DNA of 36,693 bases from an uncultured Eubacteriales bacterium (GTDB lineage Bacteria; Bacillota; Clostridia; Christensenellales; Aristaeellaceae). Position numbers and translations under genes: made by a program. The stretch is from contig CACWZI010000046.1 in assembly GCA_902765305.1 (NCBI GenBank), positions 1-36,693 of the forward strand. The letters run 5' to 3'. Of this stretch, positions 7,092 through 32,885 are shown piece by piece. The notes under the pieces were generated by a model. It worked only from the letters and a program-made list of their open reading frames with translations. It was not told the DNA's origin and did not search any database. Positions within the stretch are counted from its first letter, which is position 1. Every line of letters starts with the position of its first letter.

Positions 7092-8354
7092 ATGGATGAA
7101 CAACTACTTCAAAATCTGCTGATCGCGCTTCTGTTGCCTGCCCTGGCGCTCTTCGGTCTTGGCGTGGCAATCGGATTCGATCCGTATCTCAAGAGGGACA
7201 AGAAGCGGACGCTGCTGCTCATTGAGGCCATCGTGCTGACACTGATCGCAGAAAATATCGTTGACTTGGCGGTGGTCGAGGCATGGAAACCTGAATATAT
7301 CTTTCTGAAGACTTTCCTCGACGTTTACAGCTATGCCGCGCGGCCCGTGGTCATTACACTTTTCATCCAGACCGTTTGGGACGATCCCCGGCGTCGCCTG
7401 TTCTGGATTCCGGTGGGCCTGAACGCGGCGATCTTCCTGACTGCGCTCGTCAGGCCCTGGGCCTTTTGGATCGCGCCGGATGGGAAGTTCTTCCGCGGTT
7501 CACTGGGCTATACCGCCCACTGGGTCAGTGGCTTTCTGCTGGTTTCGATGCTTGCCATCATGCTGAGGCAGCGGGCCAGGGAGGGCGGAAGAGCCACTGT
7601 CATACCATTGACCAATGTGGGCGTGGCGGCGCTGGGCCCGATGCTGGACTTCCTGTTCCACCAGAACGGGATCATTACCTTCACCGAGATCACCACCGTT
7701 TACTGCTGCGTATTCTACTACATATGGCTGCACCAGCAATACGTGCGGGAGCATGAACTGGCGCTGCGGGAAGGTCAGCGCGTCCAGCTGATGCTCAGCC
7801 AGATCAAGCCTCACTTCCTTCATAATGCCTTGACGGTCATTGTGGGCCTGTGCGACACCGATCCCAACCGTGCCAAGCAGGCCACGCTGAAGTTCGCCAA
7901 ATACCTGCGCGGCAACATGGATTCCATAGAAGAGGCAGGACTGATCCCCTTTGAAAAAGAGCTTAAGCATACGCGGCTGTATCTTGAAATTGAACAGTTA
8001 CGCTTTGGGGAAGCCCTGGAAGTGCGCTACGACATCGCCTGCGACAATTTCAACATCCCGGCGCTGACCGTGGAGCCGCTGGCGGAAAACGCCGTGCGCC
8101 ATGGGGTTCGGGAGAATCCTGGCGGCAGGGGAACGGTGACGATTGCAACCCGTGAAGCCTTCGACCATTACGAGGTTTTCGTAATCGATGACGGCCCTGG
8201 CTTTGATTCCACGAAGTTGCCAGGCGATGGGGAAAACCATGTGGGGATCACTAACGTGCGCGAACGGCTCATGCAGGTTTGCCGAGGCACATTGGCTTTT
8301 GAGTCCGTGGCAGGCAGAGGGACGATGGCGAAAATACGGATACCGAAGGAATAG
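7092..8354 (+). CDS. 7TM LytS-like sensor histidine kinase
   Basis: 420 residues. Seven hydrophobic segments fill residues 7-218 (about 7-28, 40-60, 77-95, 103-120, 137-160, 169-190, 200-218). A His_kinase (PF06580-type) domain follows: the phospho-acceptor His241 is in QIKPHFLHNAL. A HATPase domain with N-box VEPLAENAVRHGV (Asn333), G1 box DDGPGFD (about 367-373) and GITNVRERL follows. All catalytic elements are present. The ligand bound by the membrane part is unknown. GGGAGAA precedes ATG 7092. The response regulator gene follows after 12 bases, so the two form one operon. Its promoter is not obvious and may be affected by the IS remnant that ends at 7052. Confidence 0.93.
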   Translation: MDEQLLQNLLIALLLPALALFGLGVAIGFDPYLKRDKKRTLLLIEAIVLTLIAENIVDLAVVEAWKPEYIFLKTFLDVYSYAARPVVITLFIQTVWDDPRRRLFWIPVGLNAAIFLTALVRPWAFWIAPDGKFFRGSLGYTAHWVSGFLLVSMLAIMLRQRAREGGRATVIPLTNVGVAALGPMLDFLFHQNGIITFTEITTVYCCVFYYIWLHQQYVREHELALREGQRVQLMLSQIKPHFLHNALTVIVGLCDTDPNRAKQATLKFAKYLRGNMDSIEEAGLIPFEKELKHTRLYLEIEQLRFGEALEVRYDIACDNFNIPALTVEPLAENAVRHGVRENPGGRGTVTIATREAFDHYEVFVIDDGPGFDSTKLPGDGENHVGITNVRERLMQVCRGTLAFESVAGRGTMAKIRIPKE

Positions 8355-8366
8355 GAGAGCGGTATT

Positions 8367-9170
8367 ATGCTGATATTTGCGATAGACGACGAGCCGATTG
8401 CGCTGGCAGTGCTGCACAATGCCATCGCTGAAGCGGTGCCGGTGGCGAGCATCATGGATTTTCCTCTCGGCACTGACGCGCTTGAGGCGATTCAGAAACA
8501 GGGACTTCGCCCAGACGTGGTGTTTTCCGACATCCGGATGCCTCAGCTGGACGGGTTAGCGCTGGCGGCTCGGATTCGCTCGGCGTCGCCCGCGACGAAG
8601 CTGGTGTTCGTTACGGCGTATTCCGAATATGCCCTTAAAGCGATCCAGTTGCGTGCCAGCGGCTATGTGATGAAGCCTGTGGACGCGGACGCGATACGGG
8701 AAGAGATTGCCAATATAGCTGTCGTGCGCGCGGTGATGCCCAACGGCCTGTGGGTTCGCTGCTTCGGAAACTTTGAGGTTTTCTGGAATCGAAGCCCCCT
8801 GCTGTTCGATCGCAGGCAGACCAAGGAGCTATTTGCCTTTCTGATCGACCGGGAGGGCGGAGTCTGTACGTCGGAGGAGATCATTGCCAGGCTGTGGGAG
8901 AGCGAGACGAATATGGCCGCGGCCAAGGATCGCCTCCGGCACCTGGTGGGAGACTTGAGGAGGACGTTGTCCTCCATCGGCATGGAAGATATCCTGGTGC
9001 GCCGCAGCGGGCGTTTGGCCATCCTCCGGGACAGGGTGGACTGCGACTTCTTCCGCATGGTGGACGGAGACATGGAAACAGTCAATACCTTCACCGGTGA
9101 ATACATGGCTCAGTACAGCTGGGCGGAGCTGACCACCGGGCGACTGGTCTTCAGAATACAAAAGGGATAG
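8367..9170 (+). CDS. Response regulator with SARP-type winged-helix output domain
   Basis: 267 residues. Receiver domain at 1-118 with the acidic pair DDEP at the start, phospho-acceptor Asp55 in FSDIRMPQLDG, a Thr in VFVTAYS and Lys in MKPVDAD. The C-terminal part (about 125-230), from WVRCFGNFEVFW to the DRLRHLVGDLRRTL region, matches the winged-helix DNA-binding fold of SARP/OmpR-like activators rather than LytTR. It stops soon after that, so the full bacterial transcriptional-activator domain of classical SARPs appears shortened. AGGAGAG overlaps the end of the kinase gene. It is the partner of the 7092-8354 kinase. A plausible target is the element found at 9243 and 12623 (inference). 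Confidence 0.92.
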   Translation: MLIFAIDDEPIALAVLHNAIAEAVPVASIMDFPLGTDALEAIQKQGLRPDVVFSDIRMPQLDGLALAARIRSASPATKLVFVTAYSEYALKAIQLRASGYVMKPVDADAIREEIANIAVVRAVMPNGLWVRCFGNFEVFWNRSPLLFDRRQTKELFAFLIDREGGVCTSEEIIARLWESETNMAAAKDRLRHLVGDLRRTLSSIGMEDILVRRSGRLAILRDRVDCDFFRMVDGDMETVNTFTGEYMAQYSWAELTTGRLVFRIQKG

Positions 9171-9187
9171 GAAAGTTAAATGTTTAT

Positions 9188-9212
9188 GAAGCACTTAAAG
9201 CGCTTCTTTTTT
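9188..9212 (+). terminator. Rho-independent terminator of the two-component operon
   Basis: Stem GAAGC (9188-9192) with GCTTC (9202-9206), one extra C-G pair inside a mismatch, followed by six T residues (9207-9212). Placed 18 bases after the response regulator stop. Confidence 0.65.
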
Positions 9213-9242
9213 GGGGTGGAAAGCAAGGTGGCAGGTCGCTGT

Positions 9243-9276
9243 TGTCATGTTCTTGGCCGGACGGTGTTTTATGATG
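9243..9276 (+). promoter_or_regulatory. Shared upstream element, copy A (before the MATE pair)
   Basis: The 34-base segment opening TGTCATGTTCTTGGCCGGAC matches 27 of 34 positions of the segment at 12623-12656. It lies after the two-component terminator and about 135 bases before the first MATE gene. The invariant core is TTGGCCGGA. It could be a response-regulator operator or an activator-dependent -35 region. A possible promoter downstream is TTTACC, 17 bases, TATCGG (about 9316-9344), which is weak. Confidence 0.55.
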
Positions 9277-9412
9277 AAAATGGGGGGGGTGTATCTGGTC
9301 ATACCCTCTGTCGCTCTTTACCCGACATACCAAAATACTTATCGGACATGGCGCAAGAGCGTTGTTCAATCCACCCGAAACGGGGATAGAAGCGGAAAGG
9401 TATTTTTGCAAA

Positions 9413-10819
9413 ATGGAAGCAATCAATCCAAACCTGAACACGTCGAAGAACGGTCCCGGTGTGAAGGAGTCGATATTCTACCTGATCGTGCTCATCGCCA
9501 TTGTCCCCATGATCACAGGATTGATCGGCGACTTCTTCTGCACGCGATTCTTGACCGAGGAAGAGGTCGCCGTCATGGGACTGACCGGCTCGGTGGATAC
9601 GCTGCTGACGGCGCTCGTCGCGGTGTTCGGCATCGGGGCCCAGGCGGTCTGCTCAAAGGATGTTGGCGCGCGGAATCCGGATGAATCCTCGCGGAATTAC
9701 ACGTCCATTGCCATGATGGAATTGGCGATCGTGCTGGCCGTTGCCGCCGTTGTCGCGCTGCTGCGCTATCCCATCGCGGAGCTGATCGGCGCAAAGGACG
9801 ACATCGACCTGATGAAGCCGACCGCTACCGCCATTATGGCCTTCGCAATCGGTATGCCGGGCAGCGCGCTTTACTACCTGCTCTCGGTTCTGCTCTATCT
9901 GGATGAAAAGACGCGCAGGCTGGTGCTTTACGCGACGCTGTTGAACTTCGTCGCCAGCCTCGCCGGACAGGTCGCCGTCACGCTGGCGGGACCGACCCTG
10001 TTGGGCTACCAGACCTGCGGGATCGCAGGCGACTGGTTCGGCGTGGCGTTCCTGGCCCTGTGCAAGCGCAGGAGAACCGACTATTTTCGTTTCTTGCCGA
10101 AGGAATTCTCGATGCGGCGCTTTGGGCGGGTCTTATCCGTCGGCCTCCCCGGCGGGCTGGAATACATCTATTACGCGGCGTTTGAGTTCGTCATCTACCT
10201 GTTTGTGGTGAATCGCTTTTCCTACGTCTATCTGGCGGTGTTTGAACTCAAGGAGGACATCGGCGGCATCGCGGAGAACCTTGTGGTCGGCATGTGCATC
10301 CTGCTGGTCAACCGGATCGGCCTGGCGGTGGGCAGCAAAGACGCGGAGCGGATCCGCAGGGAAATCAAGTATTCCTGGCTGGCGTGCGTCGGGATCGCCA
10401 TCGCCGCAGGGGTCGGGCTCGCTTTCCTGTATCCGGCGATGGTGGAGCTGTTCATGGGCGACAACGGCGAGCATACCGAGCAGATCATCTGGCACGCCAA
10501 GTACTACCTGACCTGCACCTGCGTCGGCCTGCCCTTCTATGTGGCCAACAACGTGTTCACCAGCGTCTATGAGGTCAAGGAGATGCTGAAGCACGCGCAT
10601 TTGAACTACTTTCTCGAAGTGCTGGGCTTCGCGCTGCTCTACGGTATTTCCCTTGGGCTCCTGATGGGACCCGTGGGTCTGTGGATTGCCTATCCGCTCA
10701 CAGAGGCGACCACGCTGCTGGTGAATTTCATCCTCGTCACCGTTCACAATCGCCGTTTCCCAAAGGATTGGATGGATCTTTCCTTCCCACGGAAGCAAAC
10801 GGAGGCGACGGAAGCGTGA
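9413..10819 (+). CDS. MATE-type multidrug/flippase-like transporter (first of a coupled pair)
   Basis: 468 residues from ATG 9413, with about 12 hydrophobic segments in the two-bundle arrangement of MATE/MOP-superfamily proteins. The first bundle begins near VLIAIVPMITGLIGDFFCTR and the second near FGRVLSVGLPGGLEYIYYAAFEF. These proteins export cationic compounds or flip lipids using an ion gradient. A TTG at 9362 in the same frame is possible, but the extra 17 residues look non-family and its ribosome site is poor; AAGG lies about 12 bases before ATG 9413, which is not ideal either. It overlaps the next gene by four bases (GTGA), implying translational coupling and perhaps a heteromeric complex (inference). 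Preceded by shared element copy A. Confidence 0.88.
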   Translation: MEAINPNLNTSKNGPGVKESIFYLIVLIAIVPMITGLIGDFFCTRFLTEEEVAVMGLTGSVDTLLTALVAVFGIGAQAVCSKDVGARNPDESSRNYTSIAMMELAIVLAVAAVVALLRYPIAELIGAKDDIDLMKPTATAIMAFAIGMPGSALYYLLSVLLYLDEKTRRLVLYATLLNFVASLAGQVAVTLAGPTLLGYQTCGIAGDWFGVAFLALCKRRRTDYFRFLPKEFSMRRFGRVLSVGLPGGLEYIYYAAFEFVIYLFVVNRFSYVYLAVFELKEDIGGIAENLVVGMCILLVNRIGLAVGSKDAERIRREIKYSWLACVGIAIAAGVGLAFLYPAMVELFMGDNGEHTEQIIWHAKYYLTCTCVGLPFYVANNVFTSVYEVKEMLKHAHLNYFLEVLGFALLYGISLGLLMGPVGLWIAYPLTEATTLLVNFILVTVHNRRFPKDWMDLSFPRKQTEATEA

Positions 10820-12531
10820 ATAATCGGACGCTTGGCATACGGAAGTTTGATCGTATTCTCATGGCCTCCGCCATCGAGATGATCGTCGGCATCGTGATTG
10901 AGCTGATCGATTCGGCGGTGACTGGCCACATCGTCGGCATGGCGGGCCTTTCGGCGATGAACGTCGTCGCGCCGGTTCTCGGCTTCACCATCTTTACCGA
11001 AAACCTCTTTTCCGTCGGCACCAGTATGCTCTACGCAAAGCGCACCGGCGAATACCGGAAAAAAGCCTCGGAGCAGATATTCGGCATGGGGCTGTCGCTG
11101 TCTTCCCTGGTGGGCGTAATGACGTTTGCCGTCATCACGCTTCTTCTTCCGCTCTACCTGGACGCCATCGGCGTTCATGGGCGGGTGCGGGAATACGTGA
11201 TGATCTACATGTCCTTCCTGAGATTCGAGCTTATGCTGTCGCCGGTCTACGAGGTGCTGAACCTGCTGATTACCACGGACGGCGACGAATTCCTGAGCAT
11301 GGCGTCAAACATCGCCCGGCCACTTTTGAACATCGCGCTGTCCATTTGGCTGGGCAGGCGCTACGGCATCGCGGGCATCGGCATGGGCACGCTGATCAGC
11401 GCGGTCGTCGCCCTTGCGATCCTGATGCTGCACTTCTTCAGCCAGCGAAGCTCCCTGCGGCCCAGGCGCTATTTCTCCTGGAAGGACCTGCGGTCGATGC
11501 TGCTCTTCGGATGGAACGATTCCGCCATGTTCTTCGTGCTTCCGGCGCTGTTTTTTGTCATCACCAAGCTGGTCATCCTCCGCTTCGGGGAAACCTGGCT
11601 ACCGGTGCTGACGGTATTGTACGCGGTCATCGAGATCACCAGCGTGTTTGAATCCACCGGGGAGGCCATGCGGGCCATACTGCCCATCTACATGGGCGAT
11701 CAAAACAACCGGGCGGTACTGCGCCTGACAAAGCATTCCCGCAGGGTCAACCAGATATTCGGCGTCCTGTTCGGCGTTGTGCTGCTCGTAGCCGCCGACT
11801 GGATTCCCCTGGCCTTTGATATCGAAGAGCCGTATCTGCTGGCCGTTTGCGCCCGCGGCTTACGGATATTCGCAATTGCCTGCCCGACGCTCTCCGAAAT
11901 GGCGCTGGTCAATTCCTTCTATCTGAACACCGGCAAGCCGAAGATCGCCATGCTTGAAACGCTGTTGGCTCAGCTGGTCTGTCCGCTGGTGCTGGTCGTT
12001 CCGATGATCCTTCTGTTCGGCATGGACGGCATCTTCATCGGCTTCGCGGCCTCCGCCTACCTCGCGCTGCTGATCCTCGGTGTCGTGCTCTATACCCGCT
12101 TTGGCAGGGAATCGTTCCCGTATTATCTCAAGGACAACGGCTGCCCGATACTTGATGAGGAAGTCGCGCTGGACGAGGCGGACGTCATGGCCTTTGTCGG
12201 GCGGGTGGACGGCTTCCTGTCGGCGCACGGCATGGCGAAGAAAACAGCCCTCCGCGTCGAACTCGCCTGCGAGGAATACCTGCTGCTGATTCGGGATCAG
12301 AACAAGGACGAGAAGGTGGAGGCGGAGTGCTGCGTTCGCGTCGAACCGGGCGATGTCGTTCTCTCCATCTGGGACAGCGGTGAGGTGTTCGACATGACGG
12401 ACGAGGATGCCTTTCCAGGCAGCATGCGCGGCTTTGTGGTGGCATCGCTGATGGTGCGGCAGACAGGCAAGAAGCACATGATCGCCACCAGCTTCAACCG
12501 GAATTGCTTCCGCTTTCCGATCGGACCATAG
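10816..12531 (+). CDS. MATE-type transporter fused to a C-terminal HATPase_c_2 (anti-sigma-kinase-like) domain
   Basis: 571 residues from GTG 10816, which overlaps the preceding stop as GTGA. Residues 1 to about 440 form a 12-TM MATE-like transporter, starting near ILMASAIEMIVGIVIELID and ending near LILGVVLYTRFGRE. The last about 125 residues are soluble and resemble the RsbW/SpoIIAB Bergerat fold: helix with ELACEEYLLLI at the N-box position, G1-like WDSGEVFDMTDED, and G2-like GSMRGFVVASLMV. The Asn that binds Mg at the N-box is replaced by Leu, so ATP binding may be weakened or lost. Ordinary MATE proteins end after the last TM at about 450 residues. An upstream in-frame ATG at 10681 lies inside the previous gene and is not used. 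A terminator follows at 12567. Confidence 0.87.
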   Translation: MNNRTLGIRKFDRILMASAIEMIVGIVIELIDSAVTGHIVGMAGLSAMNVVAPVLGFTIFTENLFSVGTSMLYAKRTGEYRKKASEQIFGMGLSLSSLVGVMTFAVITLLLPLYLDAIGVHGRVREYVMIYMSFLRFELMLSPVYEVLNLLITTDGDEFLSMASNIARPLLNIALSIWLGRRYGIAGIGMGTLISAVVALAILMLHFFSQRSSLRPRRYFSWKDLRSMLLFGWNDSAMFFVLPALFFVITKLVILRFGETWLPVLTVLYAVIEITSVFESTGEAMRAILPIYMGDQNNRAVLRLTKHSRRVNQIFGVLFGVVLLVAADWIPLAFDIEEPYLLAVCARGLRIFAIACPTLSEMALVNSFYLNTGKPKIAMLETLLAQLVCPLVLVVPMILLFGMDGIFIGFAASAYLALLILGVVLYTRFGRESFPYYLKDNGCPILDEEVALDEADVMAFVGRVDGFLSAHGMAKKTALRVELACEEYLLLIRDQNKDEKVEAECCVRVEPGDVVLSIWDSGEVFDMTDEDAFPGSMRGFVVASLMVRQTGKKHMIATSFNRNCFRFPIGP

Positions 12532-12566
12532 ACGGTATCGGGGGAAAAATTGGCGTTAAATTTTTG

Positions 12567-12591
12567 AGAGGCGGGCAAATCGCCTCTTTTT
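12567..12591 (+). terminator. Rho-independent terminator after the MATE pair
   Basis: Seven-base stem AGAGGCG / CGCCTCT with a 7-base loop, with the stem's last T running into TTTT. It lies 36 bases beyond the stop of the fusion gene and before the next shared element. Confidence 0.8.
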
Positions 12592-12622
12592 CGCCCCTGA
12601 TCGGAGGGATTCAGGGGGTTTC

Positions 12623-12656
12623 TGTCATGTTTTTGGCCGGATGGGACATTATCATG
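12623..12656 (+). promoter_or_regulatory. Shared upstream element, copy B (before the HD-GYP operon)
   Basis: The segment opening TGTCATGTTTTTGGCCGGAT matches copy A (9243-9276) at 27 of 34 bases, including TGTCATGTT, TTGGCCGGA, GG, TTAT and ATG. It starts 31 bases after a terminator and ends 101 bases before the HD-GYP gene. This placement marks the start of a separate transcription unit. Confidence 0.55.
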
Positions 12657-12678
12657 TATTATAGATTATTGTGGGTTT

Positions 12679-12709
12679 TTGTCGGGACCTGAAACATAAT
12701 CGGTATAAT
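12679..12709 (+). promoter_or_regulatory. Possible promoter of the HD-GYP operon
   Basis: TTGTCG (12679-12684), 19-base spacer, TATAAT (12704-12709). The -10 is perfect; the -35 and spacing are poor. This fits an activator-dependent promoter just downstream of shared element copy B. Confidence 0.45.
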
Positions 12710-12757
12710 ACAGGGCATGCATGATCGAGGGCACGGCTTGAAAGCAGAGAGGAGCCA

Positions 12758-15163
12758 ATGAGCGTGGAGATACTGAAGCAGTACCAAGCGGACATCATGC
12801 TGATACTCATCGGCATCTGCGCCATCATAACGGTGTTTGTCTATCTGACGAACACGATGTCACAAAAGAGAAAGATCATTTTGATGCAGATGGAGCTCAG
12901 CGCCATGTTCCTGCTGATTGCCGACAGGAGGGCTTATATCTACCGGGGAGACGCGAGCACGCTGGGCTGGTGGATGGTGCGCATCAGCAATTTTCTGGTT
13001 TTCTTCCTAATGCTGGCCGTCATCTACAGCTTCAATCTATACCTGATCGACCTGTATACCCACGAGGGCAAGCTCGAAACAGCGCCCCGCCGATTAAAGG
13101 TCGTAAAACATCTCGCGCTGTTAGGCATGGCGCTGGTCGTCATCTCCCAGTTCACGGGGTTTTACTATACCTTCGACGAGATGAACCGCTACCAGAGAGC
13201 GCCGGGTTTCATCGTCTGCTATATCATCCCGCTCTCGATCCTGCTGCTGCAAATGTCGGTTATATTGCAGTACTACAGGAACCTGAGCCACAGCATGCGG
13301 CTCTCGCTGTTGGTTTTTACGGCGGGTTCTGTCGTCGCGTCCGTCTTCCAGGTCTTTATGTACGGCATCTCGCTGAACAACATGACCATTGTCGCCATGA
13401 CGGCGCTGCTGTATGTCTTTGCGCTCAAGGACATGACGCGGGAGGTGGAACACGCCCGTAATGTGGAAATCGAGTCGTACAAAGAAGCGCAGAAGAAGGA
13501 GCACGCCCTTTTCGAGCAGACGGCGGAGGCCCTTGCGGCTGCCATCGACGCCAAGGATAAATACACGCACGGCCATTCGTCCCGCGTGGCCATGTACTCC
13601 ACTCAAATCGCTCGGGAGTCCGGGAAGAGCGAGGAGGAATGCGAGAAGGTCTACTTCGCGGCGCTGCTGCACGATGTGGGCAAGATCGGCGTGCCGGACG
13701 CCATCATCAACAAGGACAGCAAGCTGACCGACGAGGAATTCGCCTGGATCAAGCGGCATCCCGTGTTCGGGAACCAAATTCTCTCCAGCATCCAGCAGTC
13801 GCCCTATCTGAGCATCGGGGCGCACTACCACCACGAGCGATACGACGGCCGGGGCTATCCGGAGGGGCTTAAGGGCGAAGACATCCCAGACCTCGCACGG
13901 ATCATCGCTGTGGCGGATTCCTACGACGCCATGACCTCCAAACGCAGCTATCGCGATCCCTTGCCCCAGCAGATCGTGCGTGAGGAGCTGGTCAAGGGCA
14001 TGGGCACCCAATTCGATGCCGAATACGCCAAGGTCATGCTGAGCCTGCTCGACCGGGACGTGGAATACCGAATGAAGGAGCACATGGAGGACACGGACGA
14101 AGCGTTCATTACCCGTCTGCATTGCGAAAGCGTCTATCACGAGTGTTCGGTGGGCTTCCAGATTACCGATGCGGTCACCAAAATTCGCCTGTACAGCAGG
14201 GCGGACGAGGGCTTTGACGAAGCAGGGAGCCCCCCTGCGCTAATACTGTTCGACGCGCTGGATGGCAGGGTTCATGAGGATCCATCTCAGAATAAAGAAC
14301 TACTCTATATGGAATACGGCCAGATTCGGTTTGACGGGCGAACGCTGTGCAAAGCGGCGCGCAAGATCGAGACAAAGGTGTTGGACGGCGAAGGGAATAC
14401 CGGCGCGGCCGGGAAGAAATCAACCGCGCATTATAGCGCATACGAAATCGAGGCTGTCCGACACAGGGACCACGCCATGATTCGCATATCAGACGGCAAG
14501 CAGACCGTACAGAGCATCGTCGCGTTCCCGGACAGCACGCGGTTCGCCTATCTGTCCCTCACCGGCGAGCATTGCACGATCAGCAGCATCCATGTGGATG
14601 AGGATGCCGGCGTCGTTCCGGAGGATTATATTCCGCGCATTGCCGAGGAAATCAGTTATATCAAGGGCTGTCCGCAGGGTGACATTCCCAATTTGCAGGT
14701 CGATGGCTGGCGCACCCAGGCAACGCAGGGTGTTCCCATCAACGACAGAATGGAGATCGCTTTCCACACGCAGAGCCTGCCCACGGCCCGCCTCATATGG
14801 CACTGCCCCTTCGTCACGATCTTTACTTCAAAGGATGGAAGGGTTGGCGGAGAAGGGTATCGGGAGTTCCTGCTTCTGCGCCTGGACGGGGAGAACTGGG
14901 AATCTGATTCCCATGTTGAAAACAAGGTTGAAATCAATCGAACAGGCGCTTTTGGAGGCTGGAATAACTGGAAAGAGAAGAACCGCGAGGGACTGGACTG
15001 CCGGGTCAGCATCCAACGGGAGGGCAATACCGTCGCCATGACTACCGAAAACATGGGCATTTCTCTTTCCAGCGTGACGACGGTCAAGGACGAGGTCGAT
15101 GAACTCTACGTCGCCCTCACCGGCGATCAGATTGCGCTTACGAATATCAGGCTTGCCCATTGA
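12758..15163 (+). CDS. Membrane HD-GYP domain protein (predicted c-di-GMP phosphodiesterase) with a long C-terminal extension
   Basis: 801 residues. Six or seven hydrophobic segments cover residues 10-225. A linker helix (about 225-255) leads to a full HD-GYP domain (about 255-430): HGHSSRVA, LLHDVGK (His305-Asp306), HHERYDGRGYPEG (GYP 366-368) and VADSYDAM. HD-GYP enzymes hydrolyse cyclic di-GMP, usually with a two- or three-metal site, and the metal ligands are present. Residues about 440-801 form a large beta-rich extension that I do not recognise; its last 200 residues read like a concanavalin-type beta-sandwich. From topology it should be cytoplasmic. GAGAGGAG precedes ATG 12758. First gene of a three-gene unit. 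Confidence 0.9.
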   Translation: MSVEILKQYQADIMLILIGICAIITVFVYLTNTMSQKRKIILMQMELSAMFLLIADRRAYIYRGDASTLGWWMVRISNFLVFFLMLAVIYSFNLYLIDLYTHEGKLETAPRRLKVVKHLALLGMALVVISQFTGFYYTFDEMNRYQRAPGFIVCYIIPLSILLLQMSVILQYYRNLSHSMRLSLLVFTAGSVVASVFQVFMYGISLNNMTIVAMTALLYVFALKDMTREVEHARNVEIESYKEAQKKEHALFEQTAEALAAAIDAKDKYTHGHSSRVAMYSTQIARESGKSEEECEKVYFAALLHDVGKIGVPDAIINKDSKLTDEEFAWIKRHPVFGNQILSSIQQSPYLSIGAHYHHERYDGRGYPEGLKGEDIPDLARIIAVADSYDAMTSKRSYRDPLPQQIVREELVKGMGTQFDAEYAKVMLSLLDRDVEYRMKEHMEDTDEAFITRLHCESVYHECSVGFQITDAVTKIRLYSRADEGFDEAGSPPALILFDALDGRVHEDPSQNKELLYMEYGQIRFDGRTLCKAARKIETKVLDGEGNTGAAGKKSTAHYSAYEIEAVRHRDHAMIRISDGKQTVQSIVAFPDSTRFAYLSLTGEHCTISSIHVDEDAGVVPEDYIPRIAEEISYIKGCPQGDIPNLQVDGWRTQATQGVPINDRMEIAFHTQSLPTARLIWHCPFVTIFTSKDGRVGGEGYREFLLLRLDGENWESDSHVENKVEINRTGAFGGWNNWKEKNREGLDCRVSIQREGNTVAMTTENMGISLSSVTTVKDEVDELYVALTGDQIALTNIRLAH

Positions 15164-15197
15164 ATGAACCAATATAGAAATGGAGGAAGGAAGCAAT

Positions 15198-15758
15198 ATG
15201 AAGACGGATATCATCATTATTGACAGTCAGCCCAGCAGCTTCGAGAGAGCTCTAGATGAGACGAACAAGCTCGCCGCCAACTTGGGACTGAGCGTGAAGG
15301 ACGCCCAGATGCAGACGCTCATGATGGAGGAGGTACTGGGCCTGGCCAGGAGCGTGATCGGCGATACCCAGGCGCGCTTCTGGATTGAAGCAGAAGACCA
15401 GCGGATCGACCTTCGCCTGACCACCGAAGCCGTGCTGAGCAAGGAAATGCGCTACCACCTGATCCATTCCTCCACAAGCCAGAAGAACGAAGCGGCAAAG
15501 GGCATCTTCGGTAAGCTGCGCGACAGTATCGAACAGTCGCTGGCGGGCAGCGAGGCGGTTTATACAGAGGAGGCGGTTCCGTCGGAGTTGATCAATGATA
15601 TGCCCGACTATGTCGTTACAGATCCGGAATGGGACGGCCTGGAGCGAAAGCTGCTGCGCCACATGGCTGATGACGTAAAGATCGCCATTCGCGGCAAGCA
15701 GGTGGACATCACCGTCAGCAAAGACCTTTCCAATTCCAGCGCTTTCAATCGCGACTGA
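15198..15758 (+). CDS. Small protein resembling a degenerate anti-sigma-type ATPase fold
   Basis: 186 residues from ATG 15198, behind GGAGGAAGGAAG. No signal peptide or TM segment. The N-terminal half (strand, helix DETNKLAANLGL, helix QMQTLMMEEVLGLARSVIG, strands WIEAEDQRIDLRLTTEA) has the order of a Bergerat-fold domain. The N-box Asn position holds Gly, and no DxGxG box is seen, so ATP binding is unlikely. The C-terminal half (AAKGIFGKLRDSIEQSL and a final strand pair) is unfamiliar. It lies between two HD-GYP genes, 34 bases after one and 61 before the other, so it is probably co-transcribed. It may be a partner-switch protein for the ATPase-like tail of the 10816-12531 transporter (inference). 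Confidence 0.7.
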   Translation: MKTDIIIIDSQPSSFERALDETNKLAANLGLSVKDAQMQTLMMEEVLGLARSVIGDTQARFWIEAEDQRIDLRLTTEAVLSKEMRYHLIHSSTSQKNEAAKGIFGKLRDSIEQSLAGSEAVYTEEAVPSELINDMPDYVVTDPEWDGLERKLLRHMADDVKIAIRGKQVDITVSKDLSNSSAFNRD

Positions 15759-15819
15759 TTGCGGGAAGATCGAACAGAGAACATCTGCCGACGGAAATGC
15801 TTTGTGGGAGGGCTGAATT

Positions 15820-18800
15820 GTGAATCTCAGGGTTTTCAGGAAAAAAACTTCAAAATGGGCGCAATCGCTCCGGCTTTGTCTTTGCATGATGATGGCGCTT
15901 TTGTTCGTCATCCAGTATGGAAGCTATGCTTTGGCTGAGTCAACCACGGAGACGTCGAAATCGGACGAGGTTCACATTTCGGTCGATCTCGAAGGACAAA
16001 CCGAAGGCTACTCCGCGGTGCTGTACGACAACAGCAACGGCCTTCCAACCTCCGAAGCGAACGCCATTGCCGAGACCAGCGAGGGTTTTATCTGGATCGG
16101 CAGCTATGCCGGCCTGATCCGGTATGACGGCAATACCTTTGAGCGATTGGACTCCACGGGGGGTATTTCCAGCATCAAATGCCTGCATGTGGACAGCCGG
16201 GATCGGCTTTGGATGGGTACCAATGACAACGGCGTCGCGGTCATGGATAAGGGAGAGTTTCGGTTTTGGGGAAAGATGGATGGCATGAAATCCGCTCATA
16301 CCCGGGCCATTACCGAGGATGAGAACGGTACGATCTACATCGCCACCACCTGCGGCATCGCCACCATTGACGCGGATTACAACCTGGCCATGCTGGAGGA
16401 CGATCTGATCGCCGAGGCGAACATGCGTTACATTACAATGGGAACCGATGGGCTGATCTACGGGCTCACAAATCTGGGCGATATCATGACGCTTAAGGAC
16501 GGCAGGCTGCAGAGCTATATCCCCGCCGGTGAAAACACGGTCACCGGCGCTGTCGGCGCGTTCTATCCGGACATGTATGAACCTGGGATGGTCTATATGC
16601 AGACCGTGAATTATCCTTTCTGCCGCGCCCGGATGGGAGACGCGCTGACAGGCATTGTGGAGATCGATATCCAGCCGCTGTCCACGGTGCAGATGATCTC
16701 GAGCATCGACGGCAAGCTGTGGATCTGCGCCTCCAACGGCATCGGTTATGTGGAAAACGATGAATTCCACCTGCTGGAGAACCTGCCCATGAACAACAGC
16801 GTGGGCGGTGTGATGATGGACTACCTGGGCAATCTCTGGTTCACTTCTACCCGCCAGGGAGTGATGAAGATCGTTCCGAACCAGTTTTCCGATTTGTTCC
16901 AGCGCTTTGATTTGCCGACGAATGTGGTCAACACCACCTGTATGATCGAGGATAAGCTCCTGATCGGTTCGGATACGGGACTGACGGTGTTGGACGACAA
17001 TGGCCCGGTATCCAGCCTCCCGTTGACAAAAGCGATCACGGTGAACGGCGAAGACCTGGGCGCTGATGATCTGATCGAGCTGCTTGACGGCTGCCGCATT
17101 CGTTCGATCATTCGCGACAGTCACGACCGGGCTTGGATCTCCATCTGGCGAAAGCTGGGGCTGGTGTGCTACGATCATGGCGAGGTAGTCGTATTTCCTC
17201 AGGAAAACGGCCATTTTGCCAGTCTGCGAGCTGTTGCCGAAAAAGAGGATGGCAAAATCCTTGTGGCGCTGGCCGGCGGCGTGAACATCATTGAAGGAGA
17301 CCGCATGATCGGCTCTTATGGCGAACAGGATGGTATCTCAAACACAGAAAGCCTCACCGTCACGGAAGGGCTGAACGGAGAAATCGTGCTGGGCAGCAAC
17401 GGCGGGGGCATCTACATCATTGATGATTCGGGCGTCAAAAATATCAACGTGGAGGACGGCCTGCCTTCGGATGTGGTGATGCGCGTCAAGAAGGACAAAA
17501 AACATAACGTCGTCTGGATCGTTTGCAGCAGCGCCATTGCTTACATGACGCCGGATCATCACATCACGACGATTCAAAAGTTCCCCTACACAAATAACTT
17601 CGATCTTTACGAAAACAGCCAGGGTGATATGTGGGTGCTCTCAAGCAACGGCATCTATGTGGTTCCGACAGAAGAGCTGCTGGCCAACGGCGAAATCAGC
17701 CCTGTCTATTACAGCCTTGCCAACGGCCTGCCCTGTATCGCCACCGCGAATTCCTACAGTGAGCTGACCGCGGAAGGTGATTTGTATATCGCGGGCAGCA
17801 CCGGCGTGTGCAAGGTCAACATCGACCAGCCGTTTGAGGATGTCAATGAACTCAAAGCGGTGGTGCCCTATGTGGAGGCGGACGGGGCGCGCATTTACCC
17901 GGATGAAAACGGCGCGTTTACCATCTCGTCCGGCACGCAGAAGCTGACGGTTCCCAGCTTCGTGTTCAACTATTCCCTGAGCGATCCTCAGGTGAGCCTT
18001 CAGCTTCAAGGCTTTGAACGAGGCAGCACGACCGTCAGACGCAGCAATATGGTGCCCATCGACTACACCAATCTTCGGGGCGGCACTTATCACTATGTGA
18101 TGCAGCTCAGGGACAATATGGGCCGCGGCAACAAGGTCGTTACCGTTCAGATCACAAAGGAAAAGGCTTTTTATGAGGAAGTCTGGTTCTATGTCGTCGC
18201 GGGACTGGCCGCGCTGCTGCTGTTGGTCGTGATCGTTGGGCTTTATGTCCGCCGGAAGACGCAAAAGCTGGAAAAGAAGCACAAGGAAACCATGGCCTTC
18301 GTCAGCGGCATCACCGAGGCGTTCGCAAAGGTCATCGATATGAAGGACCGCTATACCAACGGTCATTCCTCCCGCGTGGCGAAGTATACCGCCATGCTGG
18401 CAAGGGAACTGGGCTGCGACGAGGAGACGGTGGAAAAATACTACCGCATCGCGCTGCTGCACGATGTCGGCAAGGTGGGCGTGCCTCAAGAGGTGTTGAA
18501 CAAGCCCGGCAAACTGACGGATGAGGAATTCGAGATCATCAAGTCGCACACTACGCAGGGATACGATGCGCTGAAGGAAATCACCATCATGCCGGAGCTG
18601 GCCATCGGGGCCCAGGCCCACCACGAACGTCCCGACGGCAGGGGCTATCCCAACCATTTGAAGGGCGACGAGATCCCACGAGTGGCGCAGATCATCGCCG
18701 TTGCGGACTGCTTCGACGCGATGTATTCCAACCGTCCCTACCGCAACCGCATGAACTTTGATAAGGTGGTTTCCATCATCAAGGAGGTCTCTGGAAGTCA

Positions 18801-18924
18801 GCTGGCGCCGGACGTGGTGGACGCATTCCTGCGACTGGTGGACAAAGGAGAGTTCCGTGATCCCGATGACGTGGGCGGAGGCAGCATGGAGAATATCGAG
18901 AACATCCGCAGCAAGGAATCATAA
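15820..18924 (+). CDS. Extracellular beta-propeller sensor with cytoplasmic HD-GYP domain
   Basis: 1034 residues from GTG 15820, behind GGGAGGG. Signal peptide at 1-40 (hydrophobic core LCLCMMMALLFVIQYGSYAL). Residues about 55-690 consist of two-component-regulator propeller repeats (for example GFIWIGSYAGLIRYDGNTF, DRLWMGTNDNGVAVMD, GNLWFTSTRQGVMKI). A Y_Y_Y-like domain follows (about 710-785; LRGGTYHYVMQLRDNMG), then one TM helix (787-810) and a coiled linker. A complete HD-GYP domain ends the protein: LLHDVGK with His881-Asp882 and HHERPDGRGYPNH with GYP 942-944. The outer half is like hybrid two-component sensors that bind oligosaccharides, but the output is c-di-GMP hydrolysis instead of a kinase. 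Last gene of the operon. Confidence 0.93.
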   Translation: MNLRVFRKKTSKWAQSLRLCLCMMMALLFVIQYGSYALAESTTETSKSDEVHISVDLEGQTEGYSAVLYDNSNGLPTSEANAIAETSEGFIWIGSYAGLIRYDGNTFERLDSTGGISSIKCLHVDSRDRLWMGTNDNGVAVMDKGEFRFWGKMDGMKSAHTRAITEDENGTIYIATTCGIATIDADYNLAMLEDDLIAEANMRYITMGTDGLIYGLTNLGDIMTLKDGRLQSYIPAGENTVTGAVGAFYPDMYEPGMVYMQTVNYPFCRARMGDALTGIVEIDIQPLSTVQMISSIDGKLWICASNGIGYVENDEFHLLENLPMNNSVGGVMMDYLGNLWFTSTRQGVMKIVPNQFSDLFQRFDLPTNVVNTTCMIEDKLLIGSDTGLTVLDDNGPVSSLPLTKAITVNGEDLGADDLIELLDGCRIRSIIRDSHDRAWISIWRKLGLVCYDHGEVVVFPQENGHFASLRAVAEKEDGKILVALAGGVNIIEGDRMIGSYGEQDGISNTESLTVTEGLNGEIVLGSNGGGIYIIDDSGVKNINVEDGLPSDVVMRVKKDKKHNVVWIVCSSAIAYMTPDHHITTIQKFPYTNNFDLYENSQGDMWVLSSNGIYVVPTEELLANGEISPVYYSLANGLPCIATANSYSELTAEGDLYIAGSTGVCKVNIDQPFEDVNELKAVVPYVEADGARIYPDENGAFTISSGTQKLTVPSFVFNYSLSDPQVSLQLQGFERGSTTVRRSNMVPIDYTNLRGGTYHYVMQLRDNMGRGNKVVTVQITKEKAFYEEVWFYVVAGLAALLLLVVIVGLYVRRKTQKLEKKHKETMAFVSGITEAFAKVIDMKDRYTNGHSSRVAKYTAMLARELGCDEETVEKYYRIALLHDVGKVGVPQEVLNKPGKLTDEEFEIIKSHTTQGYDALKEITIMPELAIGAQAHHERPDGRGYPNHLKGDEIPRVAQIIAVADCFDAMYSNRPYRNRMNFDKVVSIIKEVSGSQLAPDVVDAFLRLVDKGEFRDPDDVGGGSMENIENIRSKES

Positions 18925-19054: not shown

Positions 19055-19231
19055 CCGTGCAGAGCAATCATGACGGAATGGCCCAATTACAACTGCGAGA
19101 TGCCACCTTACCCAAACTTCAAAATGAATCCGCCGGTTGCATCCATCCCATAATCGTCCATTGTATCATTATCACCCACTAAAGCCAGCTCTGCACGTAA
19201 GTTTTGATACAAAGCTTGCGTGCAGCTTTTT
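19055..19231 (+). ncRNA. Candidate structured RNA, rod-like, about 175 bases
   Basis: No protein frame is credible here. Nested complementary segments run along the whole length: CGTGCAGAGC (19056-19065) with GCTCTGCACG (19188-19197), ATGA with TCAT (19070-19073/19166-19169), AATGG with CCATT (19077-19081/19158-19162), and GATGCCACC with GGTTGCATC (19099-19107/19135-19143, one mismatch). The shape resembles a 6S-like rod, but I do not recognise conserved sequence of 6S or any riboswitch class. The closing strand 19188-19197 also takes part in a terminator hairpin (19191-19231), so the two folds exclude each other. A decayed miniature inverted-repeat element is the main alternative. Confidence 0.4.
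19191..19231 (+). terminator. Rho-independent terminator of the candidate RNA
   Basis: Eleven-base stem CTGCACGTAAG (19191-19201) with CTTGCGTGCAG (19215-19225), one G-U pair, 13-base loop, then C and five T residues (19227-19231). Confidence 0.6.
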
Positions 19232-20414: not shown

Positions 20415-20461
20415 AACACACGGGGACGGTTCTTCAACACAAAGAACCGTCCCCGTGTGTT
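20415..20461. terminator. Perfect 20-base hairpin after the toxin gene
   Basis: AACACACGGGGACGGTTCTT (20415-20434) and its exact complement (20442-20461) flank a 7-base loop. No good T-run follows on the plus strand. The GGGGACGGTTCT core recurs in short form near 29064 and 30021, so this may be a dispersed hairpin repeat that also ends transcription from both sides. Confidence 0.5.
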
Positions 20462-24872: not shown

Positions 24873-24918
24873 GAAATCGTGGCCGCACCGACTCCCTCAG
24901 AATTTATCAATATATCCC

Positions 24919-24947
24919 TTGACATATATATACCCTGCTTCTACAAT
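24919..24947 (+). promoter_or_regulatory. Promoter of the third MATE gene
   Basis: TTGACA (24919-24924), 17-base spacer, TACAAT (24942-24947), 33 bases before ATG 24981. Confidence 0.8.
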
Positions 24948-24980
24948 GGTTTTGTATTATACGTCAAGGAGAAATCACCC

Positions 24981-26363
24981 ATGCAGAAGGCGGCCCCCGC
25001 TGAGAACAAGATGGGCGTGATGCCCATTCCCAAGCTGATACTGAACATGTCGCTGCCGATGATACTGTCCATGCTGGTGCAGGCGTTGTACAACGTGGTG
25101 GACAGCTACTTCGTGGCCCGCTACGCCCAGGACGCGCTGACGGCGGTGTCGCTGGCTTTCCCGGCGCAAAACCTGATGATCGGCGTGGCCACGGGCACGG
25201 CGGTGGGCGTCAACGCGCTGCTTTCCCGGGCACTGGGCGAGAAGAAGCCGGAGCTGGCGAACCGCATCGCCGAAAACGGCGTGTTCCTGGCGATGGTGGG
25301 CTACGCGCTGTTCCTGATCTTCGGCCTGTTCGGCGTGCGGGCCTTCTTCCGCGCCCAGACCGACGTGGAGACCATCGTGAATTACGGCGTGGACTACCTG
25401 ACCGTCATCTGCTGCTTCAGCTTCGGCGTGTTTGGCCAGATCATGTTCGAGCGGCTGATGCAGTCCACCGGCCGCACCATCTACACCATGTTCACCCAGG
25501 GCACCGGCGCGATCATCAACATCATACTGGACCCCATATTCATACTGGGGCTCAAGCAGGGCGCCAGGGGCGCGGCCATCGCCACGGTGATCGGCCAGAT
25601 CGTCGCCTTCGGCCTGGCGGTGACCCTGAACCACTTCAAGAACACGGACATCCGTTTGAGCATGCGCCGCTTCAGGCCGAATCTGAACATGATCCGGCGC
25701 ATCTACGCCATCGGCGTACCCTCCATACTGATGATCGCCATCGGCTCGGTGATGACCTTCCTGTTCAACATCATACTGATCACCTATACCAGGGCCGCGG
25801 AGCTGTCCGCCACGGTGTTCGGCGTGTACTTCAAGCTGAACAGCTTCGTGTTCATGCCGGTATTCGGCCTGAACAACGGCATCATCCCCATCGTGGCCTA
25901 CAACTACGGCGCGCGCAACCGCCGCCGCATGATGGAGGCGATCCGGCTGGCGGTGATCTACGCGGCCAGCTACATACTGCTGGGCCTGCTGGCCTTCATG
26001 ATCATCCCCGGGCCGCTTTTGAAGATCTTCAACGCCTCCGACGAGATGCTTCGGGTGGGCATCCCCGCGCTGCGCATCATCGGCTCAACCTTCCTGTTCG
26101 CCGGCGTCTGCATCGCCATGGGCTCGGTCTTCCAGGCGCTGGGCTACGGCACCTATTCGATGATCGTGTCCTTCATCCGCCAGCTGGTGGTGCTGCTGCC
26201 CGCGGCCTGGATACTGGCCCGCATCGGCTTGCAGACCGGCAACGACCACCTGGTCTGGTTCGCCTTCCCCATCGCCGAGATCGCCTCGCTGATCACGACG
26301 CTGATACTGTTCCGGCGGCTGTATAAAAACGTTATACTGCCGATCCCCGAAGGCACAACCTGA
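24981..26363 (+). CDS. MATE family efflux transporter
   Basis: 460 residues, about 12 TM segments. The N-terminus PIPKLILNMSLPMILSMLVQ and ALYNVVDSYFVARYAQDALT are classical for the MepA-like branch of MATE exporters. The second bundle starts near RIYAIGVPSILMIAIGSVM; FVFMPVFGLNNGIIPIVAYN is another signature. It probably exports drugs or metabolites in exchange for Na+ or H+. AAGGAG lies before ATG 24981; a longer frame from 24879 would begin upstream of the promoter and is rejected. Own promoter and a strong terminator, so it is a single-gene unit. Its sequence is clearly different from the pair at 9413-12531. Confidence 0.94.
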   Translation: MQKAAPAENKMGVMPIPKLILNMSLPMILSMLVQALYNVVDSYFVARYAQDALTAVSLAFPAQNLMIGVATGTAVGVNALLSRALGEKKPELANRIAENGVFLAMVGYALFLIFGLFGVRAFFRAQTDVETIVNYGVDYLTVICCFSFGVFGQIMFERLMQSTGRTIYTMFTQGTGAIINIILDPIFILGLKQGARGAAIATVIGQIVAFGLAVTLNHFKNTDIRLSMRRFRPNLNMIRRIYAIGVPSILMIAIGSVMTFLFNIILITYTRAAELSATVFGVYFKLNSFVFMPVFGLNNGIIPIVAYNYGARNRRRMMEAIRLAVIYAASYILLGLLAFMIIPGPLLKIFNASDEMLRVGIPALRIIGSTFLFAGVCIAMGSVFQALGYGTYSMIVSFIRQLVVLLPAAWILARIGLQTGNDHLVWFAFPIAEIASLITTLILFRRLYKNVILPIPEGTT

Positions 26364-31526: not shown

Positions 31527-32885
31527 ATGAATAACGCACCCCACGATTTCACCCGCGGCGGCATCGCCGGGCCGCTGATTCGCTTTGCCATTCCCGTGCT
31601 GGCCGCGCTGTTTTTGCAGGCGATGTACGGCGCGGTGGACCTGCTGGTGGTGGGCCAGTTCGCCGACAAGGCGGACGTCTCCGCCGTGGCCACCGGGGCC
31701 CACATCATGATGACACTGACCAACCTGGTGGCCAGCCTGGCCATGGGCGCGACGATACTGCTGGGACAGCAGATCGGCGAGGGCAACGCGGAGCGGGGCG
31801 GCGCGACCATCGGCGCGTGCATCGCCCTGTTCGGTTCGATGGGGCTGGCGCTGACGCTCGTCACGGTGCCCGGCGCGGGACTGCTGGCCACGCTGATGCA
31901 GGCCCCGGCCCACGACCTGACCGCCGCCTATGTGCGCATCTGCGGCACGGGCATGCTGGTCATCATCGCCTACAACCTGATCGGCAGCGTGTTCCGGGGC
32001 ATCGGCGATTCCGTGACGCCGCTGGTCACCGTCGCCATCGCCTGCGCGATCAACATCGCCGGCGACCTGCTGCTGGTGGCTGTATGCCAAATGGGCGCCG
32101 CCGGCGCGGCCATCGCCACCGTCGCCGCCCAGGCGGTCAGCGTGGCGATCTCGCTTATGCTGGTTCGAAAAAAACAGCTGCCCTTCCGGCTGGAAAGGCA
32201 GCACATCCGCTTCGACAGACCCCTGGTGGCGCAGGTCCTCCGCCTCGGGCTGCCCATCGCGCTGTCCGACCTGCTGGTCAGCATATCCTTCCTCGTCATA
32301 CAGGCCATCGTCAATGCCCTGGGCGTCGTGCCCTCGGCGGGCGTGGGCGTCGCGGAAAAGGTATGCGCCTTCATCATGCTGGTGCCCTCGGCCTTCTCCC
32401 AGTCCATGTCCGCCTTCGTTGCCCAGAATGCTGGCGCGGGGAAGTACGACAGGGCGGTCAGGTCGCTGTATTGCGGCATCGGTCTCTCCCTCGCCGTAGG
32501 CGCGGTGATGTCCTGGATGTCCATAGGCCACGGCCAGCTGCTGGCCGGCATCTTCTCAAACGACCGGGAGGTCATCGTCGCGGCGGCGGATTACCTGAAG
32601 GCCTACGGCATCGACTGCCTGCTCACGCCCATATTCTTCTGCGCCATCGGCTTCTTCAACGGCCTGGGCCGAACCCGCTTCGTCATGGCCCAGGGCATCG
32701 TCAGCGCGTTCTGCGTGCGCGTGCCGGTTTCGTACCTGATGAGCCGCCGTGTGCCCGTGTCGCTGTTTTGGATCGGCATGGCCACGCCGTTTTCGTCGAT
32801 GCTGCAGATCGCGATGTGCACGTGGTATTTCCTGGCGTTGCGGCGACAGGGGCTGTTGAGGATGGAATCTGAGAAAAAAGGGTGA
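31527..32885 (+). CDS. MATE family efflux transporter
   Basis: 452 residues with about 12 TM segments. Opening FTRGGIAGPLIRFAIPVLAA then LFLQAMYGAVDLLVVGQFAD is a strong MATE signature. The middle GMLVIIAYNLIGSVFRGIGD and second-bundle start VLRLGLPIALSDLLVSISF fit too. Predicted Na+/H+-driven exporter. AGAAGG precedes ATG 31527. A TAATAT at about 31487-31492 could be the -10; no good -35 is seen. Single gene flanked by two copies of the palindromic repeat. Confidence 0.94.
   Translation: MNNAPHDFTRGGIAGPLIRFAIPVLAALFLQAMYGAVDLLVVGQFADKADVSAVATGAHIMMTLTNLVASLAMGATILLGQQIGEGNAERGGATIGACIALFGSMGLALTLVTVPGAGLLATLMQAPAHDLTAAYVRICGTGMLVIIAYNLIGSVFRGIGDSVTPLVTVAIACAINIAGDLLLVAVCQMGAAGAAIATVAAQAVSVAISLMLVRKKQLPFRLERQHIRFDRPLVAQVLRLGLPIALSDLLVSISFLVIQAIVNALGVVPSAGVGVAEKVCAFIMLVPSAFSQSMSAFVAQNAGAGKYDRAVRSLYCGIGLSLAVGAVMSWMSIGHGQLLAGIFSNDREVIVAAADYLKAYGIDCLLTPIFFCAIGFFNGLGRTRFVMAQGIVSAFCVRVPVSYLMSRRVPVSLFWIGMATPFSSMLQIAMCTWYFLALRRQGLLRMESEKKG

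Follow-up and report, generated by a model that had tools for sequence, protein, structure and literature searches.

A promoter box shared by a MATE transporter pair and an HD-GYP operon probably links both to a LytS-type two-component system in an uncultured Eubacteriales bacterium

In the genome of an uncultured gut bacterium of the Eubacteriales, a MATE transporter pair and an operon encoding two HD-GYP proteins are probably co-regulated, as a regulon, by the neighbouring two-component system through a promoter box common to both units. The window, by which we mean the whole 36,693-nt stretch analysed, is one contig of a draft genome of 3.88 Mb (~3.9 Mb; 177 contigs, 93% complete). The ORF listing confirmed seven consecutive plus-strand genes in the order reported by a first-pass annotation of this DNA (Table 1), and we refer to genes 1-2, 3-4 and 5-7 as units one, two and three. 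That annotation had proposed that the units act together. Co-regulation is the part of the proposal that is best supported, because the shared element is real and is tied to gene 2's family in other genomes. Across the genomes compared, the gene 2 regulator is conserved and its targets are reshuffled, and the window is by this comparison one version of the regulon, with a transporter pair and two HD-GYP proteins.

Table 1. Computed features of the seven-gene stretch, in window coordinates.
Feature	Position	Strand	Description
Gene 1	7092..8354	+	LytS-like membrane histidine kinase; His_kinase PF06580 and HATPase_c (Pfam)
Gene 2	8367..9170	+	Response regulator; C-terminal winged helix of SARP/OmpR-like type, Trans_reg_C match below cut-off
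Hairpin and T run after unit one	9188..9211	+	Weak, terminator-like (folding)
Promoter box 1	9241..9260	+	GTTGTCATGTTCTTGGCCGG; -10 hexamer TATGAT at 9270-9275
Gene 3	9413..10819	+	MATE transporter, 468 aa; ORF open from TTG 9362, probable start ATG 9413 (by eye)
Gene 4	10816..12531	+	MATE transporter ending in a degenerate RsbW-like tail of about 135 residues; probable start GTG 10816 (by eye)
Terminator hairpin after unit two	12566..12588	+	Folding: -13.8 kcal/mol, z -2.47
Promoter box 2	12621..12640	+	TCTGTCATGTTTTTGGCCGG; -10 hexamer TATCAT at 12650-12655
Gene 5	12758..15163	+	Membrane HD-GYP protein; conserved unnamed C-terminal domain at 14081-15160
Gene 6	15198..15758	+	186 aa, unnamed family whose other members usually adjoin STAS genes; probable start 15198 (by eye)
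Gene 7	15820..18924	+	Signal peptide and transmembrane helix (both by eye), Reg_prop propeller, HD-GYP

Because the start codon of gene 4 overlaps the stop codon of gene 3, the MATE pair is probably translationally coupled. The two terminators annotated earlier fared differently: the hairpin after unit two folds well, with 3 of 200 shuffles as good, whereas the one after unit one is weak (9188-9206; -6.6 kcal/mol, z -1.15; 23 of 200 shuffles as good), and a terminator consensus scan of the window listed neither. The gene-poor stretch that follows gene 7 holds a long hairpin at 20417-20459 (20 pairs, minus strand) and a 16-pair hairpin at 19191-19225, and two further transporter ORFs lie farther along the window, at 24879-26360 (MatE confirmed) and 31527-32885 (MATE-like by eye only). 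In all loci fetched from other genomes, genes were called by a simple custom script whose small ORF calls are unreliable.

The element that the first-pass annotation had placed upstream of both units is a genuine one. Within three mismatches, TGTCATGTTYTTGGCCGGAYGG has two sites in the draft genome (9243 and 12623 of the window), both at the promoters of units two and three, and a reversed-pattern control has none. The box spans ~20 nt, ends 10 nt before the -10 hexamer and, judged by sequence, occupies the place of a -35 element; aligned sites approximate TTTGTCAYGTTTTTGGMCG followed by a -10 hexamer, and by best match the gap between them is 10 nt at 13 of the 16 sites, 9 nt at two and 15 nt at one. 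It can be written as TTTGTCA-N4-TTTGGCC, an 11-bp unit with two heptamers, and likely contains a direct repeat, the signal of which is modest in this T-rich box (identity 0.47 at offset 11 versus 0.42 and 0.41 at offsets 10 and 12). When one mismatch was allowed in the 17-nt pattern TGTCAYGTTYWTGKMCG, the window's own genome gave four matches, the two exact ones being the window's boxes, and the control gave one; no copy of the box was seen before the window's gene 1. That the shared element belongs to a known riboswitch or RNA family was rejected: the window has no Rfam match at gathering scores, and neither box region folds better than its shuffled versions.

The box recurs in related genomes. 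Exact TGTCAYGTTYWTGKMCG matches number 13 in eight of 300 family genomes, with four for the reversed pattern, and 8 of the 13 adjoin gene 1-2 relatives or precede gene 5. In G285, one exact match (contig C229) stands before a gene for an unnamed secreted protein and another (C331) before a contig end; others lie in G263, G275 and G100, outside the set of matches whose neighbours were compared. A scan of the fetched loci found near-copies after gene 1-2 relatives in G285, G228, G222, G258, G128 and G180. In G204, gene 1-2 relatives are followed by a box, an HD-GYP gene, a propeller kinase and a gene 5 relative. G287, from another genus, carries two exact copies on separate contigs, one between a gene 2 relative and a propeller-HD-GYP gene related to gene 7, the other upstream of a gene 5 relative, at a distance of ~420 nt that includes a called ORF of 77 aa. 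In G186, two divergent boxes lie next to a gene 2 relative, beside which no gene 1 relative was found; one faces a MATE gene without the tail domain, the other a two-gene run ending in a propeller-HD-GYP gene whose propeller shares 86-87% identity with the gene 7 propeller. One box copy in G285 precedes a gene run that ends in genes 1-2 themselves, so some family members may be autoregulated. A general motif before gene 5 relatives was rejected: when their upstream 300 nt were scored, none of the 27 others passed the cut (best score 6.3, versus 28.0 in the window).

The presence of the box follows the regulator. Downstream of gene 2 relatives, it was found in 13 of 15 loci at C-terminal domain identities of at least 53% versus 3 of 18 loci below 45% (leave-one-out scoring, shuffle p≤0.01), and four loci with gene 1 at 50-52% and a dissimilar regulator are without it; in these loci the box tracks gene 2's DNA-binding domain rather than gene 1. 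The box had first been spotted in the window and relatives sought from it, so these early counts are seeded, and since most of the 15 high-identity loci had supplied training sites, a held-out test was run on the only previously unseen set, 68 loci that remained of 80 named ones after removal of 10 seen earlier, one duplicate and one too short. The box was significant in 26 of the 68, versus none on the opposite strand, and 25 of these 26 had the 10-nt spacing. Split by C-domain identity, the hits made up 22 of the 38 loci with at least 53%, 3 of the 21 with 48-52% and 1 of the 9 with less, which leaves 16 of the 38 high-identity loci, and 42 of the 68 overall, without a significant box. In another check, which used 26 picked loci, the spacing is 10 nt in all, or in 23 when ties are broken against 10, versus 14% of shuffled tails. 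Across the leave-one-out and held-out sets the box mostly lies 17-150 nt past the end of the gene 2 C-domain match, in varied gene settings. By its computed place, spacing and link to the gene 2 domain, the box looks as the gene 2 family's own binding site should.

Two other readings of the box deserve weighing. It might be the site of another regulator or mark an alternative promoter class, with the two-component system a bystander; the 3 of 18 loci with a distant regulator that also score would fit this, as would the 5 of 13 exact matches untied to genes 1-2 or gene 5. However, such a reading sits poorly with a box that follows gene 2 C-domain identity, that mostly lies 17-150 nt past the domain match in changing surroundings, and that in the window's own genome occurs only at these two promoters, and we consider it unlikely. 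Less credible still is that seven ordinary genes are neighbours by chance and share an element that arose by short local duplication. The full set was seen only in the window, HD-GYP genes are plentiful and 107 of the 120 family genomes have MATE relatives. Yet many genomes show the element at a fixed distance from the -10, in G287, which belongs to another genus, a contig of its own bears it ahead of a gene 5 relative, and the held-out result described above already speaks against chance. Regulation of units two and three by unit one through the box is thus the reading that we prefer.

The two-component pair itself was confirmed at the level of its main domains. Pfam recognises the kinase domains of gene 1 and Response_reg in gene 2, as the first-pass annotation had it, and the receiver domain and sensor kinase are encoded in neighbouring genes. 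As to its further description of gene 2 as SARP-type, Trans_reg_C was matched only below cut-off (E 4e-4; 20.8 bits versus 26.2), and a PDB search with the winged-helix domain gave a weak best match (E 0.23) and no significant similarity to known SARP structures. Gene 1 relatives at E≤1e-50 occur in 67 of 300 family genomes. The 80 named records encoding gene 2 relatives are mostly metagenome-assembled Clostridia, many with rumen or ruminant-gut isolate names; a few come from isolates (Butyrivibrio, Eubacterium ruminantium) or bear the label Eggerthellaceae or Flexilinea. Within these loci, which span 3.5 kb upstream and 8 kb downstream of gene 2 and are frequently truncated by a contig end, neighbours include STAS, SpoIIE or RsbW genes in 6 of 80, MATE genes in 3 and HD-GYP genes in 4, the last being close to the 3 expected on an estimate of about ten HD-GYP places per genome; some hold very large proteins or peptide-exporter-like ABC genes, as judged by lengths, with identities by eye. 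One locus (L345:10953-20294) reads gene 1-2 relative, box, receiver-like protein, STAS, SpoIIE, RsbW and a peptide-exporter-like ABC pair, the last assigned by eye. A literature search, with subscription journals mostly outside its coverage, returned no paper on a family combining SARP, LytS and Clostridia.

In unit two, MatE scored over the Pfam cut-off in both genes, and profile comparisons upheld the earlier description of gene 4 as a MATE-HATPase fusion. The direct match of its tail to HATPase_c_2 is weak (E 0.011, below cut-off); profile comparison links the tail to those of other MATE proteins (E 2.3e-11) and to free-standing RsbW-like proteins (E 1.1e-7), related MATE tails match the solved RsbW 6m36 (E 1.4e-5), and a profile of gene 4-type tails found no significant match among solved structures. 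The N-box Asn and the G2 glycine box serve ATP/Mg binding. The N-box Asn is absent from all 12 gene 4-like tails, which share a [YF]NR[NS] motif near their end instead, and the GGLG box is lost; by these residues the gene 4 tail looks like an RsbW-type pseudo-ATPase that has lost its ATP-binding residues. Several relatives lie among partner-switching genes. G108 (three MATE-tail copies) and G209 have a run of MATE, MATE-tail, SpoIIE, STAS, STAS and RsbW, of which G278 has a broken-up version; because the three seem to derive from a single inherited arrangement, they represent fewer independent cases than their number suggests. In G172 the MATE-tail gene directly follows a propeller-SpoIIE gene, with a propeller at 69-70% identity to the one in gene 7, in G258 the relative is near a STAS-domain gene, and in G188 a MATE gene whose tail is more canonical shares a locus with propeller, SpoIIE and STAS genes. 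This gene context suggests that partner switching may control the transporter. The window has no called STAS gene and no PP2C gene; elsewhere in its genome there are three SpoIIE places, and on contigs C80, C148 and C49 gene 6 paralogues have STAS genes next to them. In another genome, L041:13731-14855 has a HATPase-like N-terminal domain (by eye) before a sodium:dicarboxylate symporter (PF00375), beside STAS, RsbW and MATE-tail genes. Among the papers listed by literature searches, with subscription journals mostly outside coverage, none was on a MATE with an RsbW-like tail.

In unit three, the HD-GYP and propeller-HD-GYP assignments of genes 5 and 7 were confirmed by Pfam (HD_5/HD in both, Reg_prop also in gene 7). 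The HD and HHxxxDGxGYP motifs of gene 7 are intact and its alignment matches solved HD-GYP enzymes; those of gene 5 were seen by Pfam and by eye. Gene 5 relatives at E≤1e-90 occur in 32 of 300 family genomes. The 360 residues at the C-terminus of gene 5 are a conserved domain for which, in 12 members, neither Pfam nor the PDB gave a match. In G290 and G150 a gene 5-type domain and HD-GYP are joined to a propeller that shares 66-67% identity with the gene 7 one. The gene 7 propeller was found at E≤1e-120 in 39 of 300 genomes, with 53 matches listed. Its outputs vary: among 40 propeller genes in 39 new loci, 17 carry HD-GYP (one broken), 2 a gene 5-type HD-GYP (one fragmentary) and 13 SpoIIE, 7 have SpoIIE in the next same-strand gene and 1 is cut by a contig end; a more distant propeller relative (L201) carries HisKA, HATPase_c and a receiver domain. 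Both output types occur in G253 (L261:3766-19552), where two propeller genes ~10 kb apart have SpoIIE and HD-GYP, respectively, and at G000:C3:28368-28847 lies a fragment of an HD-GYP domain that shares 75% identity with the gene 7 domain and is interrupted by two in-frame stops. A literature search with the same restricted coverage of subscription journals found no paper on propeller, HD-GYP and SpoIIE together, or on partner switching with HD-GYP.

Gene 6 had been called a degenerate ATPase fold, which we do not retain as proven: neither gene 6 nor any of 18 family members has a match over the Pfam cut-off, and profile comparisons with the GHKL fold were insignificant, with short local similarity only at the expected helix and last strands. 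The family is found in 141 of 300 genomes. Among free-standing members in the fetched loci, 33 of 42 have a STAS gene within two genes (those of the window and of L212 do not), versus 130 of 1430 other genes, in loci chosen for gene 6 and related genes, so that this background is not a random genome sample. In several genomes, domains like gene 6 are also found fused behind Mbeg1-like (PF11187) hydrolases (L106:7874-9595, L107:6927-8636, L108:7921-9825 and L110:7770-9449).

A fixed seven-gene system does not emerge from these comparisons. The first-pass annotation had itself named scattering of the genes in related genomes as evidence against its proposal, and scattered they are: no other locus examined had all seven, gene 5 relatives mostly have other neighbours (19 loci examined), and the idea of a fixed set of seven is rejected. 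The conserved adjacency of MATE-HATPase and HD-GYP genes that it had suggested looking for was likewise not found; only 1 of 28 distinct MATE proteins of at least 545 aa in the fetched loci has an HD-GYP gene within five genes, namely the window's own. Beyond it there is only a same-genus case, L212, in which the MATE gene is cut by a contig end, too few to claim conservation.

Taken together, we propose that genes 1-2 encode a LytS-type kinase and a SARP/OmpR-like response regulator, that the regulator would bind the ~20-nt box standing in for a -35 element, and that, once bound, it would activate, rather than repress, the transporter pair and the HD-GYP operon. The HD-GYP enzymes would then lower a cyclic dinucleotide, most likely c-di-GMP, and the extracytoplasmic propeller of gene 7 would add another sensory input. 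STAS proteins encoded elsewhere in the genome may be bound by gene 6 and by the tail of gene 4, and the transporter pair would therefore be set post-translationally by partner switching. We hold this partner-switching part only tentatively, and the wiring of transporter, gene 6 and STAS is put forward as a hypothesis.

The tail and the HD-GYP domains each admit another reading. It is quite conceivable, if short of probable, that the tail is a dimerisation or nucleotide-sensing module without STAS partner. The missing N-box Asn and GGLG box would fit this; among 18 gene 4-like relatives in the fetched loci, ten have no STAS, SpoIIE, RsbW or gene 6-like neighbour (six near the end of the fetched piece), and those of G076 and G098 lie with FGGY sugar-kinase and HAD genes (Pfam), and in G192 and G222 the neighbours match these genes in length. 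Against this, seven of the 18 do have STAS, SpoIIE or RsbW within five genes; one further relative has a gene 6-like and an HD-GYP gene in its neighbourhood. As to substrate, hydrolysis of 3'3'-cGAMP rather than c-di-GMP is improbable in our estimate: the best solved relative of the gene 7 domain is the 3'3'-cGAMP-specific phosphodiesterase 5z7c (E 1.8e-46), ahead of 4mcw (E 1.1e-40), but similarity of the core does not settle specificity, and c-di-GMP is the likelier substrate because the genome has 38 GGDEF places.

If these readings hold, the box would be a promoter code, open to testing, by which the targets of a two-component family present in many gut Clostridia could be read from genome sequence. 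Should STAS proteins be bound by transporter tails, the known range of partner switching would extend past sigma factors to membrane transport. The exchange of HD-GYP and PP2C outputs in the propeller family is a natural experiment on the replacement of cyclic-dinucleotide signalling by partner switching and vice versa. A wider picture, which we regard as doubtful, is that MATE transporters (and in G108 perhaps one of SDF type) carry RsbW-like pseudo-kinase domains that bind STAS proteins, the phosphorylation of which gates transport, that interchangeable propeller receptors feed either HD-GYP or SpoIIE PP2C outputs, and that the two-component regulator and its box co-express these branches.

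Parts of this arrangement resemble known systems. Hybrid two-component sensors with Reg_prop domains, as in Bacteroides, have an extracytoplasmic propeller sensor as gene 7 does; unlike them, the propeller is here joined to HD-GYP and in relatives to SpoIIE. With the RsbW/RsbV/PP2C modules (SpoIIAB/SpoIIAA/SpoIIE) the locus shares the RsbW-like tail of gene 4 and, beside some relatives, STAS, SpoIIE-type PP2C and RsbW genes, whereas here the domain is fused to a transporter, has lost its ATP-binding residues and stands in a window with neither STAS nor PP2C gene. For SARP regulators, the available text of PMC10972967 describes sites of heptamer direct repeats in 11-bp units overlapping the -35 region. 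The regulator and box would resemble the AfsR and ActII-ORF4 class, so far as that text describes it, in the winged-helix domain and in heptamers of an 11-bp unit over the -35 region, and differ in that the domain lies behind a receiver domain, is paired with a LytS-like kinase in gut Clostridia and has a box of modest repeat signal. In Pseudomonas aeruginosa, HsbR-HsbA ties partner switching to a response regulator, and the cascade includes the diguanylate cyclase HsbD (available text of PMC6482189 and PMC5085249, respectively); where that cascade has a diguanylate cyclase, the locus described here has HD-GYP proteins and, as a possible effector, a transporter.
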